A DNA stretch of 33,610 nucleotides from Thermodesulfobacteriales bacterium (lineage in GTDB: Bacteria > Desulfobacterota > Thermodesulfobacteria > Thermodesulfobacteriales > Thermodesulfatatoraceae): NCBI GenBank assembly GCA_026988575.1, contig JALSKZ010000075.1, positions 1 through 33,610 of the forward strand. Direction: 5' to 3'. The position numbers and the translations under genes were made by a program. A model generated the notes under the pieces. The model did not search any database, was not told the origin of the DNA, and was given only the letters and a program-made list of their open reading frames with translations. This document shows positions 10,458-32,051 of the stretch, piece by piece. The first letter of the stretch is position 1. The number at the start of each line of letters is the position of its first letter.

Positions 10458-12248
10458 TTAATCTTGCCAATTTGGACGGTGGATAGCAAGAGCCAAATAT
10501 CTATTATTTTCTTGGAAAATTAGTCTCTTTTGGACCATATCACGTAGAAAATTTTTTAATTCATCTTCTTTAAGGCCGGTAAATTTGTTTTTTATTTCCG
10601 AAAAATTTCTTATATCCGTCAGGAATAGATAAACTTTACGTCCCATGCCAGTAAGACGATGATGTAATACTTTGTCCTCGGGTAGGACTTGACGAATCAA
10701 AATAAACCTACCCCCATCACGATAGGCCAAAAGAGGCCCTTTAGTTTTTGAAAGGGCTAGGTAACGTTTCTGCCAGCGTAAAACCTTTTCTCTTACCGGA
10801 CGCCACAATCTTCTCTGGAACACCCGATCACCGCGATAAGACCAAGCCAAAGGGACAAGGCCTTTAAATACCTCCTTAGGGAATAATATCCGGTAGTGCG
10901 GATGCGGATAAATCGCCTTTAACCCAAAAGATTTGTAATCTCTAAAGACCGGGCTCCCGTAGCCTAACCAAAAAGAAACGGTAGTAAGAGGTCTAAAGGG
11001 AAAAACAAAATCCAAATTAACCAGAGATTCTTCCATTTCTTCCCGCGTAGACAGAGGAAACTCTAAAATAAGATTCCCTTCTAACAAGAGACCTGCTTCC
11101 TCACAATGCCGCATGGCCGCCACGTTATCCATAGCAGTTGTACCCTTGTTAAGGCGTTTTAATAAAGAAGTACTCAGGGCCTCGATGCCAATTTGTACCC
11201 AGTGCAGGCCCCCCTGGCGCATAAGATGATAGTGTTTCCGTTGATATACAGCCCTCAATTCCGCAAAAAAACGGTAATCTAGGCCGTCTTGAGCCAGCGC
11301 AGAAAAAAGATTGAGCGCACCCTGGGCAGGTAGACAATTATCCATAAAAGAAAAGTCCAAAAGCCCGGCCTGGGCATGTGCCCTTATCTCTTTAAGGACC
11401 TTTTCCAAGGGCTTTTGACGATAACCCCGCCACTGAAGGTTTAAATTACAAAAGCGGCACTTAAACCACCAGCAACCACGAGATGTTTCCAAGGGAACCA
11501 GCGGGAAAAATCTCTTCTCCCCAGGCAGCGAAAGCACTTCTTTAAGATAATCTTCATAAATAGGCGAAGGAATTTCCGAAGCCGAAAGCTCTAAAAAGCC
11601 TTCCCCCTGAATCTGCCCGTTTTGGCGATAAAATAAGCCCCGCGAGGGTAAGGGTTCCCGGTTAACAAGATGTTTTAAAAGCCCTAAAAGGGGCCTTTCT
11701 CCCTCACCATTTATTACGTAATCTATCGTGGGAAAACATTGCAAAAGGGCCTTCCCCATTTCGTCTGCACAGCTCGAACCACCAAAGACTATGGGAAGCT
11801 CGGGAAAGTGTCTTTTAAGCCATCTTGCCCCCCAAAGGGAGGAACAAAGTTGATTTAAGCAGACCGAAAAGCCCACCGCTAGAAACTCTGACCAAGGCAG
11901 GGCCGAAAAATATTCCTCAAGGGTATTTTCCAAAACCGCTAAAGTTGTTTCAAAGTCGACGGCGAGGGATTTTTTGCGTGTCAGCCTGTTAAACAACGAG
12001 AGGATTTCCTTTTTGTGTTGAGGGAAAAGTAGGGCTGCAAAGAAAGATTCCGCCAACCAGGAAGTCTCGCTAAGCACGTGATATTGTTGGAAACCCAGCC
12101 TTTCAGCCACCCGCACATAAGGATGGAAAGTTCTGACCTCAAGTTCAGGCCACACATTCCTTAAATATCCTTTTAACACGCCCAACTGTACCGAAGGACG
12201 ATTAAAAAGAGGCCACGGCATGGAGACCAAGGCAAAAGCCTTTTTCAT
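10458..12248 (-). CDS. B12-binding radical SAM protein of the RiPP-maturation type
   Basis: 596 residues. An N-terminal region (MPWPLFNRPSVQLGVLKGYL, FHPYVRVAERLG) and a cobalamin-binding-like Rossmann region (~120-190: LAVGFSVCLNQLCSSLWGAR, LPIVFGGSSCADEMG, IDYVINGEGE) precede a radical SAM core with SRGCWWFKCRFCNLN (Cys259, 264, 267). A winged-helix-like C-terminus follows (~535-590, ending NNRYLALAIHR). The overall motif order matches the radical SAM C-methyltransferases that act on ribosomal peptides (rSAM_ocin/TIGR03975 type, from memory). The first two cluster Cys are spaced C-x4-C rather than C-x3-C, or the longer spacing I recall for that family. Likely reaction: radical methylation or a related change on an unknown, possibly peptide, substrate. 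Convergent with the kinase, 5 nt apart. A 34-residue ORF lies upstream. Confidence 0.8.
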   Translation of the reverse strand: MKKAFALVSMPWPLFNRPSVQLGVLKGYLRNVWPELEVRTFHPYVRVAERLGFQQYHVLSETSWLAESFFAALLFPQHKKEILSLFNRLTRKKSLAVDFETTLAVLENTLEEYFSALPWSEFLAVGFSVCLNQLCSSLWGARWLKRHFPELPIVFGGSSCADEMGKALLQCFPTIDYVINGEGERPLLGLLKHLVNREPLPSRGLFYRQNGQIQGEGFLELSASEIPSPIYEDYLKEVLSLPGEKRFFPLVPLETSRGCWWFKCRFCNLNLQWRGYRQKPLEKVLKEIRAHAQAGLLDFSFMDNCLPAQGALNLFSALAQDGLDYRFFAELRAVYQRKHYHLMRQGGLHWVQIGIEALSTSLLKRLNKGTTAMDNVAAMRHCEEAGLLLEGNLILEFPLSTREEMEESLVNLDFVFPFRPLTTVSFWLGYGSPVFRDYKSFGLKAIYPHPHYRILFPKEVFKGLVPLAWSYRGDRVFQRRLWRPVREKVLRWQKRYLALSKTKGPLLAYRDGGRFILIRQVLPEDKVLHHRLTGMGRKVYLFLTDIRNFSEIKNKFTGLKEDELKNFLRDMVQKRLIFQENNRYLALAIHRPNWQD

Positions 12249-12308
12249 AGTCTCAATTTAACACTATAGGAGTAAAAAAACAGCAAATTAGTTACCGTTT
12301 AATTTGTC

Positions 12309-12413
12309 TTAGGGCAATAGGTCACCACCAAACAGGCCAAAGCCCTCTGCGTTTTTTTCGTAATATTTCGCCATGGCTACACACACGGCCTCAGAGGAAT
12401 AGAATTGTTTCAA
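12309..12413 (-). CDS. Possible 34-residue peptide (candidate precursor for the adjacent radical SAM enzyme)
   Basis: A short ORF 60 nt upstream of, and co-directional with, the radical SAM gene. It starts at TTG (12413-12411), about 7 nt after an AGG in a CCTAGGTC context, and ends at TAA. The N-terminal half is MKQFYSSEAVCVAMAKYY; the C-terminal half is EKNAEGFGLFGGDLLP, rich in Gly and Phe. An internal ATG would give 21 residues. An in-frame stop lies directly before the TTG, so it cannot extend. Third-position choices (GCC, GGC, CTG, GAG) look like those of neighbouring genes. It resembles no precursor family I know. The competing view is that this is untranslated leader; the same DNA has short palindromes (AATTG-AAA-CAATT over the start). 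Confidence 0.35.
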   Translation of the reverse strand: MKQFYSSEAVCVAMAKYYEKNAEGFGLFGGDLLP

Positions 12414-12522
12414 TTATTGACCTAGGTATCCAGTTTGTGTTTAAATTTGAAAAGAGATATTTTCAGACTCCTATTCCAAGAAAGACCATGCTTTTTTGGC
12501 CCCTAAAGAGGAGGGCTATTTA

Positions 12523-29847: not shown

Positions 29848-30905
29848 AGGCGTGGAAAAAGTAGCTTAAATTTAGTGCCTTCACCAGGGCTTGTTTCCAA
29901 TTGTATTTGCCCGCCATGGGCCTCGACTATGGTCTTTACAATGGCCAGTCCAAGCCCTGAACCTGAAGGGGTATGCCTTTGCGTCTTTACACGATAAAAA
30001 GGCTCAAAGATATGGGGCACGTCTGCGGGAGGTATACCAGGGCCTTGATCTCTTACCTCAAAGATTATCGTTTCGTCCTTAAAGTCCATACAAACGCTTA
30101 TGCGGGAATCTTTTGGGGAATATTTGATGGCGTTATCTATTAAGTTGGCCAACGCCCTTTCTATCTGGAGTGAGTCAGCGGTGAACCATATTTCTTCGGG
30201 ATAAAGCTCTAGGTGGAGGTCAATATTTTTCTTTTCGGCGGCTAGCCCGAAGCGTTTGACCACCTGAGAGACGAGCTGTTGAGGTACACAGGGGGCTAGC
30301 TCAAGCCGAAGATGTCCGCTCTCCAACCGCAACATATCGAGGAAGTTAAAGATTAAGCCTTCTAGTTTTTTTAGTTCAGTAGTAGCTGTTTGTATATAAC
30401 GCTTTTGCTTATCATTAAGAGGGCCCGCTTTGCCTTCGGCGAGGCGTTTTAAAAAACCCAGGGCCGTAGACAAGGGGGCCTTGAAGTCGTGGGCTAACAT
30501 GGAAATAAACTGTTTTTTACGTGCTTCGTATTTTTTGAGTTCTCGAATGTCTTGTAAAAAGACGATAGCTCCTACCAGGAGATTTTTTTGGCGTAGGGGA
30601 TAGGCATAGATATAGACGGGGATCTCCTCCCCGCTTACGTGAAATACCTTGTTTTCGTAGTGCTCCATGGGCACACCTTCTTTAATAACCCTAATTATCT
30701 GGTCTTTTAGGTCGAGGTTTTTCAGAGTGGCCTTTAAAAAGGCATGTCCTATTGTTTTTTGATCAAGGCCCAGGAGTTCTTGTATTTTTTGGTTAAAATC
30801 TACCACATCGAGATTTTTATCCAGGATGAAAAAGGCTAAGGGTAGAGTCTTTTTGAGATTTTGATAGAGCCAGTCAAGGTGTTGTGGGTTATTGCTCACG
30901 GCCAT
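29823..30905 (-). CDS. PAS-domain sensor histidine kinase, soluble
   Basis: 360 residues without a membrane segment. PAS domain at ~12-122 (LPLAFFILDKNLDVVDFN to VGAIVFLQDI), HisKA with His139 (SMLAHDFKAPLSTALG) and HATPase to ~350 (NLIDNAIKYSPKDS, RDQGPGIPPADVPHIFEPFYR, GSGLGLAIVKTI). It is of the phosphate-sensor/PhoR-like kinase type. No response regulator gene is adjacent, so the partner is unknown. Divergent from the MetE-like gene with a 54-nt gap. Confidence 0.88.
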   Translation of the reverse strand: MAVSNNPQHLDWLYQNLKKTLPLAFFILDKNLDVVDFNQKIQELLGLDQKTIGHAFLKATLKNLDLKDQIIRVIKEGVPMEHYENKVFHVSGEEIPVYIYAYPLRQKNLLVGAIVFLQDIRELKKYEARKKQFISMLAHDFKAPLSTALGFLKRLAEGKAGPLNDKQKRYIQTATTELKKLEGLIFNFLDMLRLESGHLRLELAPCVPQQLVSQVVKRFGLAAEKKNIDLHLELYPEEIWFTADSLQIERALANLIDNAIKYSPKDSRISVCMDFKDETIIFEVRDQGPGIPPADVPHIFEPFYRVKTQRHTPSGSGLGLAIVKTIVEAHGGQIQLETSPGEGTKFKLLFPRLCKISTNK

Positions 30906-30959
30906 TTTTTAAGTATACTCTCCTTGCATAAAATTTTGAATCTCAAAAGGGGGTTGTTT

Positions 30960-32051
30960 TTGTTTCAAGCAAACTTATATCCCACCCTGATAGGTAGCTT
31001 CCCGGGGAAAGATCATCTCAAGGCGGTAAAGGCGGTATTGAATCATTGTAAAGAGGTACCCTGCTGGCCTCAGCTCCCGGCGTATCCTCAGGAAGAGATG
31101 CTGCGACAGTTTTCCAGGGGGCTCCCAGGTCTGGATACCGAAAGACTTATCCTCGACCCCTCATCTGCCGGTTTTGAGGAGGAAATGCTTTCCTTTTATG
31201 AAGATTACATGGCCCTTACCGAAGGGGCCAAGGACTGGCCGGAGACGAGGTTTGTGATGACCCGGGAAGAAGCTCCCGGGCTTTTTCTCTTACTAGAAGA
31301 GATAGAAGAGCAGGCCCTGAAGCCCCAGGCCCTGAAGCCCCAGGCCCTGAAGCCCCAGGCCCTAAAGGGCCAAGTCACTGGTCCTTTTACGCTAGGAGTT
31401 GGGCTAAAGACCCCCGATGGTAAGGCGGTATTTTACGACGTTCAGGCCCGTGATTTGGTGACCAAATTGGTAGCGCTTAAGGCGGCTTGGCAAACTGATT
31501 TTTTAAAGGCGCAAGGGGTGCCGGTGTTGATGTTCTTCGATGAACCCGCCTTGGCGGGGTTTGGTTCCTCGGCCTATGTAGGAGTAAGCGAAGAAGATGT
31601 AGTACAGGTACTTTCCGAGGTCTCCGAGACCATAAAAGCAAAAGGGGCAGTGCCTGGCACACACGTGTGTGCCAATACAGAATGGCGTTTGCTGGTCAAG
31701 TCTGGAGTTTCAGTAATAAGTTTTGACGCCTTTGATTATTTAGACAGATTCTTACTTTTTTATGGGGATCTTAGAGAATTTTTACGAAACGGGGGTATCA
31801 TAGCCTGGGGTATCGTACCTACTTTAAAGCCTGAAGCCTTGGAGCAGATGAGCGCGAAAGAATTGGGCACACGTCTTAAGGAGGCCATGACTACCTTGGC
31901 TCAAAAGACCGGCGTTGATCTGGCCCAAATAGCCAGCCAATCTTTAATTACCCCCAGCTGTGGAATGGGTACCCTAAACGAGGAGCTTGCTGAACATGCC
32001 CTTAAGCTTAACCGACAAGTGGCCGATGGTCTTCGCGAAGAATTGCTATAA
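30960..32051 (+). CDS. MetE/UROD-superfamily protein (cobalamin-independent methionine synthase-like)
   Basis: 363 residues with a TIM-barrel resembling the C-terminal half of MetE. It opens with YPTLIGSFPGKDH and holds GPFTLGVGLKTPDG, MFFDEPALAGFGSSAYVG and the zinc-binding set HVCANTEW (His and Cys) and TPSCGMGTL (Cys). It lacks MetE's N-terminal half, so it is probably a methyl transfer protein using a corrinoid or other donor rather than full MetE. The TTG at 30960 was chosen because AGGGGG lies 6 nt before it; the open frame to 30861 overlaps the divergent kinase. A 15-bp tandem repeat inserts extra ALKPQ units. Confidence 0.75.
   Translation: MFQANLYPTLIGSFPGKDHLKAVKAVLNHCKEVPCWPQLPAYPQEEMLRQFSRGLPGLDTERLILDPSSAGFEEEMLSFYEDYMALTEGAKDWPETRFVMTREEAPGLFLLLEEIEEQALKPQALKPQALKPQALKGQVTGPFTLGVGLKTPDGKAVFYDVQARDLVTKLVALKAAWQTDFLKAQGVPVLMFFDEPALAGFGSSAYVGVSEEDVVQVLSEVSETIKAKGAVPGTHVCANTEWRLLVKSGVSVISFDAFDYLDRFLLFYGDLREFLRNGGIIAWGIVPTLKPEALEQMSAKELGTRLKEAMTTLAQKTGVDLAQIASQSLITPSCGMGTLNEELAEHALKLNRQVADGLREELL
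31311..31370 (+). repeat. 15-bp in-frame tandem repeat inside the MetE-like gene
   Basis: Three exact copies of CAGGCCCTGAAGCCC (31311-31325, 31326-31340, 31341-31355) and a fourth that diverges (31356-31370). Each encodes Gln-Ala-Leu-Lys-Pro. They fall between the acidic helix at EEIEEQ and the conserved GQVTGPFTLG, in what should be a loop, so length changes may be tolerated. Confidence 0.9.

Follow-up and report, generated by a model that had tools for sequence, protein, structure and literature searches.

Cobalamin-dependent radical SAM enzymes include OxsB, TsrM, MgmA, TokK and CysS, of which OxsB performs a ring contraction and is not a methyltransferase in its own pathway. The NCBIfam family TIGR03975 (rSAM_ocin_1) bears the name ‘RiPP maturation radical SAM C-methyltransferase’. 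Described C-methyltransferases of this chemistry have substrates of very different kinds. PoyB and PoyC, the polytheonamide C-methyltransferases, carry a CX7CX2C motif and are members of a RiPP pathway, in which PoyC methylates the β-carbon of valine in a peptide (PMC5682303); MgmA, the McrA glutamine C-methyltransferase, acts on a stretch within a large conserved protein and not on a RiPP (PMC11796369). Here we compare these systems with a locus in a 33,610-nucleotide stretch of DNA from a Thermodesulfobacteriales bacterium (hereafter the window), where an initial annotation had proposed a radical SAM maturase with its peptide precursor encoded just upstream. With somewhat more confidence than doubt, we favour a different reading, in which the enzyme belongs to an orphan, precursor-less lineage of TIGR03975 and is a C-methyltransferase of an unlinked peptide or protein, the neighbouring open reading frame (ORF) having arisen by chance. 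The interest of the locus is the orphan clade and not the proposed RiPP.

The radical SAM gene is present as claimed, at 10458..12248 on the minus strand, and its product of 596 amino acids is a full-length member of TIGR03975, scoring 345.4 bits (curated cut-off 281.85) over model positions 2-606 of 606; the same model matches all 32 aligned orthologs at E≤1e-10. Pfam PF04055 (Radical_SAM) is also matched above its cut-off (38.2 against 29.5 bits), and the Pfam B12-binding model, sub-threshold in the window enzyme (14.4 of 32.1 bits), is matched by 29 of the 32 aligned orthologs at E≤1 and at best at 5e-9. For an AlphaFold2 model built from the ortholog alignment (mean pLDDT 93.1, pTM 0.90), the top solved-structure matches in Foldseek were OxsB, which was closest, TsrM, MgmA, TokK and CysS; all of these were also found by profile search except TsrM, which was seen by Foldseek only. 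With TIGR03975 over its cut-off and the fold of a cobalamin-dependent radical SAM enzyme, the earlier family call as a B12-type radical SAM methyltransferase stands, and the protein is most likely a class-B (cobalamin-binding) radical SAM enzyme, its B12 dependence being predicted from the modelled fold.

Within this broad likeness the differences are considerable. OxsB, TsrM, TokK and CysS share the fold of the window enzyme at an identity of 12-17% and have different substrates. PoyC and PoyB share its architecture as B12-dependent radical SAM methyltransferases, a comparison made by description, but the window enzyme has a CX4CX2C motif and no cluster, as against the longer spacing and RiPP pathway of PoyB and PoyC. 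MgmA is likewise a B12-dependent radical SAM enzyme whose structure is among the best fold matches, yet the window enzyme is not MgmA-type, reaching 54.2 bits with TIGR04014 against a cut-off of 360. That OxsB is the closest solved structure, together with weak matches to the BchE, HpnJ and HpnR models, would suit an enzyme acting on a small molecule, by methylation or by some other cobalamin-dependent radical reaction like those of OxsB and BchE. We consider this improbable, as TIGR03975 is the sole family model above cut-off and all 32 members possess the C-terminal domain of that model, in place of which OxsB is described with a helical bundle (PMC13331322).

The predicted domains follow one another along the minus strand. 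An N-terminal B12-binding-like Rossmann domain (approximately residues 1-200; 11649..12248) is delimited by the strands and helices of the model and by the Pfam B12-binding matches of orthologs; in the window enzyme its cobalamin-binding character is predicted through fold alone, from the matches to OxsB, TsrM, TokK, CysS and MgmA. It carries the clade motif PWPLFxRPSxQ at 11-21, as well as G126, Q133 and G156-G157. The radical SAM core barrel (approximately residues 245-460; 10869..11516), placed by PF04055 and the model, contains the cluster motif CX4CX2C followed by NLNLQW (11448..11474), whose cysteines C259, C264 and C267 are invariant across the 32 aligned orthologs. At the C-terminus, a winged-helix-like domain (approximately residues 499-590; 10479..10754) corresponds to positions 523-606 of the TIGR03975 model, a part matched by all 32 members, and when modelled separately it again takes the form of a winged helix (pLDDT 91). 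Such a domain is a candidate for leader or protein binding. Compared with solved structures, it gave no match at E≤0.001, and the 50 matches listed included no PqqD and a weak one to the radical SAM enzyme TigE (E 0.33); with neither fold nor sequence match significant, it is at most a putative RRE.

Orthologs of the enzyme were surveyed in a sample of 395 genomes of the phylum Thermodesulfobacteriota, 67 of which gave a match at the threshold of E≤1e-30. These fall into two groups: 56 genomes, about one seventh of those sampled, have a single ortholog with 38-67% identity (in two genomes seen as two pieces), and 11 hold enzymes at 26-30% identity, several with tandem copies, with no identities between the two ranges anywhere in the sample. 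A scan of genome contigs gave three close relatives and a weak match, and the named close relatives, including Thermodesulfatator atlanticus, are Thermodesulfobacteriota. A tree built from 42 orthologs together with 13 further TIGR03975 enzymes of the phylum splits the two sets at SH-aLRT 100 and places the window's order in one group inside the clade. The clade is a single-copy lineage of Thermodesulfobacteriota, and at least in the order to which the window belongs its inheritance is vertical. The enzyme is under purifying selection, dN/dS being 0.12-0.29 in seven ortholog pairs. It is missing from some close relatives (G003, G005 and genera g5 and g6), which suggests repeated loss.

What sets the clade apart from other TIGR03975 enzymes, to which its identity is only 26-30%, can also be read from individual residues. 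W12, Q21, G183, N268, W273, G429 and W482 are invariant within it and rare outside, and in all 41 readable clade sequences, but in none of 14 others, the Cys motif is followed by NLN(L/I/V)Q. The spacing of the cysteines, by comparison, was rejected as a clade marker: it varies within the clade, where 27 of 43 sequences examined have CX4CX2C and other members have 9-15 residues or longer, and among the 14 other TIGR03975 enzymes CX7CX2C is found in ten and CX4CX2C in three. A literature search found two papers that name TIGR03975 and none on this clade.

The case for an adjacent precursor depends on the intergenic region at 12249..12495, a probable promoter region that separates the enzyme gene from a divergently oriented gene for a YeiH-type transporter (PF03601). 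It measures 247 nt by the ORF listing, and the 274 nt given earlier applies only if the divergent gene starts later. Here, at 12309..12413 on the minus strand, lies the 34-codon ORF put forward as precursor. It is indeed co-directional, with one Cys, a Gly/Phe-rich end and a stop 60 nt before the ATG of the enzyme, but its Tyr residues number three where two had been counted. Translation would start from a TTG that an in-frame TAA immediately precedes, and from the first ATG 21 codons are left; an SD-like purine stretch does exist upstream, but the only one is TAGGT, which is weak. The initial annotation was right that codon choice resembles that of the neighbours (adaptiveness 0.76 against 0.74-0.79 in genes), and this usage, which puts the ORF among the top 5-11% when set beside 111 other window ORFs of 30-45 codons, counts weakly in favour of a real gene. 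When the gap was subjected to 2000 dinucleotide shuffles, co-directional ORFs reaching 34 codons or more arose in 33% of cases at 247 nt and 38% at 274 nt, and the presence of the ORF is therefore no more than chance would give.

Comparison with relatives leads the same way. By protein search the 34-residue peptide occurs in its own genome only, with no homolog in 60 relatives; nor was the ORF found beside any other analysed ortholog (42 loci), an outcome that the initial annotation had named as refuting its proposal. In 26 of the 42 loci a co-directional upstream gene ends at most 50 nt from the enzyme start or overlaps it, and there is therefore no room for a precursor there. Searched against 12 relatives, the gap DNA matched only in fragments of a size expected by chance, and a search for small ORFs recurring across families within 5 kb of the 42 orthologs yielded none beyond spurious-looking pairs. 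From its orientation, proximity and codon usage one could still argue that the ORF is a genuine RiPP precursor, specific to its lineage, on which the adjacent enzyme acts. Set against these, the frequency of such ORFs in shuffled sequence, the TTG start and weak SD, the lack of homologs or of any recurring equivalent, a hairpin with a T-run lying between ORF and enzyme, a genome devoid of Nif11- or NHLP-like leaders, and an enzyme clade far older than the ORF leave this reading with very little probability. On the chance rate, the missing homologs and the want of room at orthologs, the ORF was rejected as precursor, and it most likely arose by chance within the promoter region of two divergent genes.

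The hairpin in question, AT-rich and followed by seven T, occupies 12274..12306 on the minus strand, straight after the stop of the ORF, and was recognised from sequence and fold; a GC-based terminator scan does not report it, its GC content being below threshold. It is possibly a weak terminator or attenuator, and together with the T-run would tend to separate the ORF from the enzyme transcript. The gap also holds a long imperfect inverted repeat at 12385-12491 (minus strand), around GGAATAGGAG and CTATTCCTCTGAGGCC, with a fold z-score of only -1.83, which is possibly an operator of the divergent promoters. A structured RNA was considered for the gap and rejected, given that fold score, the unconserved DNA and a search of Rfam that found no family at gathering score and one sub-threshold chance match.

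RiPP precursors can be unlinked from their enzymes, or too divergent for the searches made. TIGR03975 enzymes with adjoining Nif11 leader genes do occur in the phylum, among the distant enzymes at 26-30% identity (loci L110, L111, L112 and L118), and these share with the window enzyme the motif SRGCWW...CxFC, DN303-304, E330, QxGxE352-356 and KG368-369; the C-terminal domain and the full-length HMM match are likewise common to the window enzyme and the family. The clade differs in being single-copy and in lacking Nif11 or NHLP leaders above cut-off, whether linked or elsewhere in the genome. Nif11 exceeds its cut-off in four of four Nif11-type control genomes and NHLP in two of five controls, as against none of 14 clade genomes in either case, although one sub-threshold Nif11 match was seen in G010. 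The window's own genome has no Nif11 or NHLP leader above cut-off by the same searches that were positive in controls. Each of the four Nif11 loci has between one and four TIGR03975 enzymes, as well as an extra protein of ~500 aa (cluster 23) with a radical-SAM-like Cys motif.

Gene neighbourhoods of the clade vary between genera, and no recognisable RiPP genes were found at any of the 42 loci, nor a protease or exporter beside the enzyme and conserved with it. In the window, the neighbours are the YeiH-type transporter, a Usp protein and a PAS histidine kinase. Upstream of orthologs, by names that rest partly on sequence inspection and partly on family searches, the closest relative (L037) has a PurE-like gene and another family a divergent Lon-like gene; HtpX-like genes stand there in some other families only, and EamA-like, LolA-like and other genes elsewhere. 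In the sister genus (L005, L038, L039, L044 and L046) a Peripla_BP_2 gene overlaps the enzyme gene by 4 nt; BtuF was considered for this binding protein and rejected, the BtuF model reaching 70-74 of 234 bits and Peripla_BP_2 alone being secure. Its ligand may be heme, B12 or some other metal compound. It is unlikely that the enzyme serves a RiPP whose unlinked precursor was missed by the Nif11 and NHLP models: the name of the family, the Nif11 leaders beside distant relatives and a C-terminal winged helix that could bind a leader would all agree with it, but a recognisable RiPP gene is found in none of the 42 loci, and a single copy descending with the order is unlike the multi-copy RiPP loci L110-L112.

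We therefore return to the orphan lineage without a linked precursor. By analogy with described enzymes, its most likely activity is C-methylation of a peptide or protein. Cleavage of SAM at the cluster would yield a 5'-deoxyadenosyl radical able to abstract hydrogen from an unactivated carbon, which would then receive a methyl group from methylcobalamin, in the way that PoyC methylates valine in a peptide (PMC5682303). The substrate would be encoded elsewhere in the genome, unlinked to the enzyme, because no RiPP precursor is linked to the enzyme in this clade; for this role the product of the 34-codon ORF is a less likely candidate than a conserved cellular protein or an unlinked peptide. 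The single-copy, conserved and context-free pattern would fit MgmA-like action on a conserved protein better than RiPP maturation. More specifically, and as a tentative suggestion in which we place limited confidence, the clade may be a single-copy cellular enzyme that C-methylates one conserved protein, a bacterial counterpart of Mmp10/MgmA acting on McrA. If the clade does modify a conserved protein, the phylum would have a protein C-methylation not previously recorded there, and a natural-product enzyme family would be shown moving into general cell function. Genome annotation would label the enzyme a RiPP maturase and so set off a hunt for an adjacent peptide product that probably does not exist; the definition of the clade by signature motifs, orthologs and presence or absence is sufficient for others to test.

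A need for cobalamin would agree with several genes of the pathway found in these genomes. The window's own genome carries CobU, and cobalamin synthesis or salvage is therefore possible; CobU and a CobD-like gene adjoin the ortholog in L086, and CbiM lies near that of L037. Two further proteins were noted among the neighbours of orthologs. One, a conserved protein of ~280 aa (alignment A2) for which a weak TPR match is the only family assignment, is encoded downstream of the enzyme in several families (L054, L080, L081, L082, L084, L085, L089, L094 and L097); it was rejected as an obligate partner or substrate, being absent from the window's own genome and present in many genomes without the enzyme. 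The other is a MetE-like core protein encoded in the window at 30861-32051 (plus strand), 18 kb from the enzyme and just under cut-off for Meth_synt_2, whose homologs lie directly behind the enzyme, with a 4-nt overlap, in L095 and L109 of one other genus.
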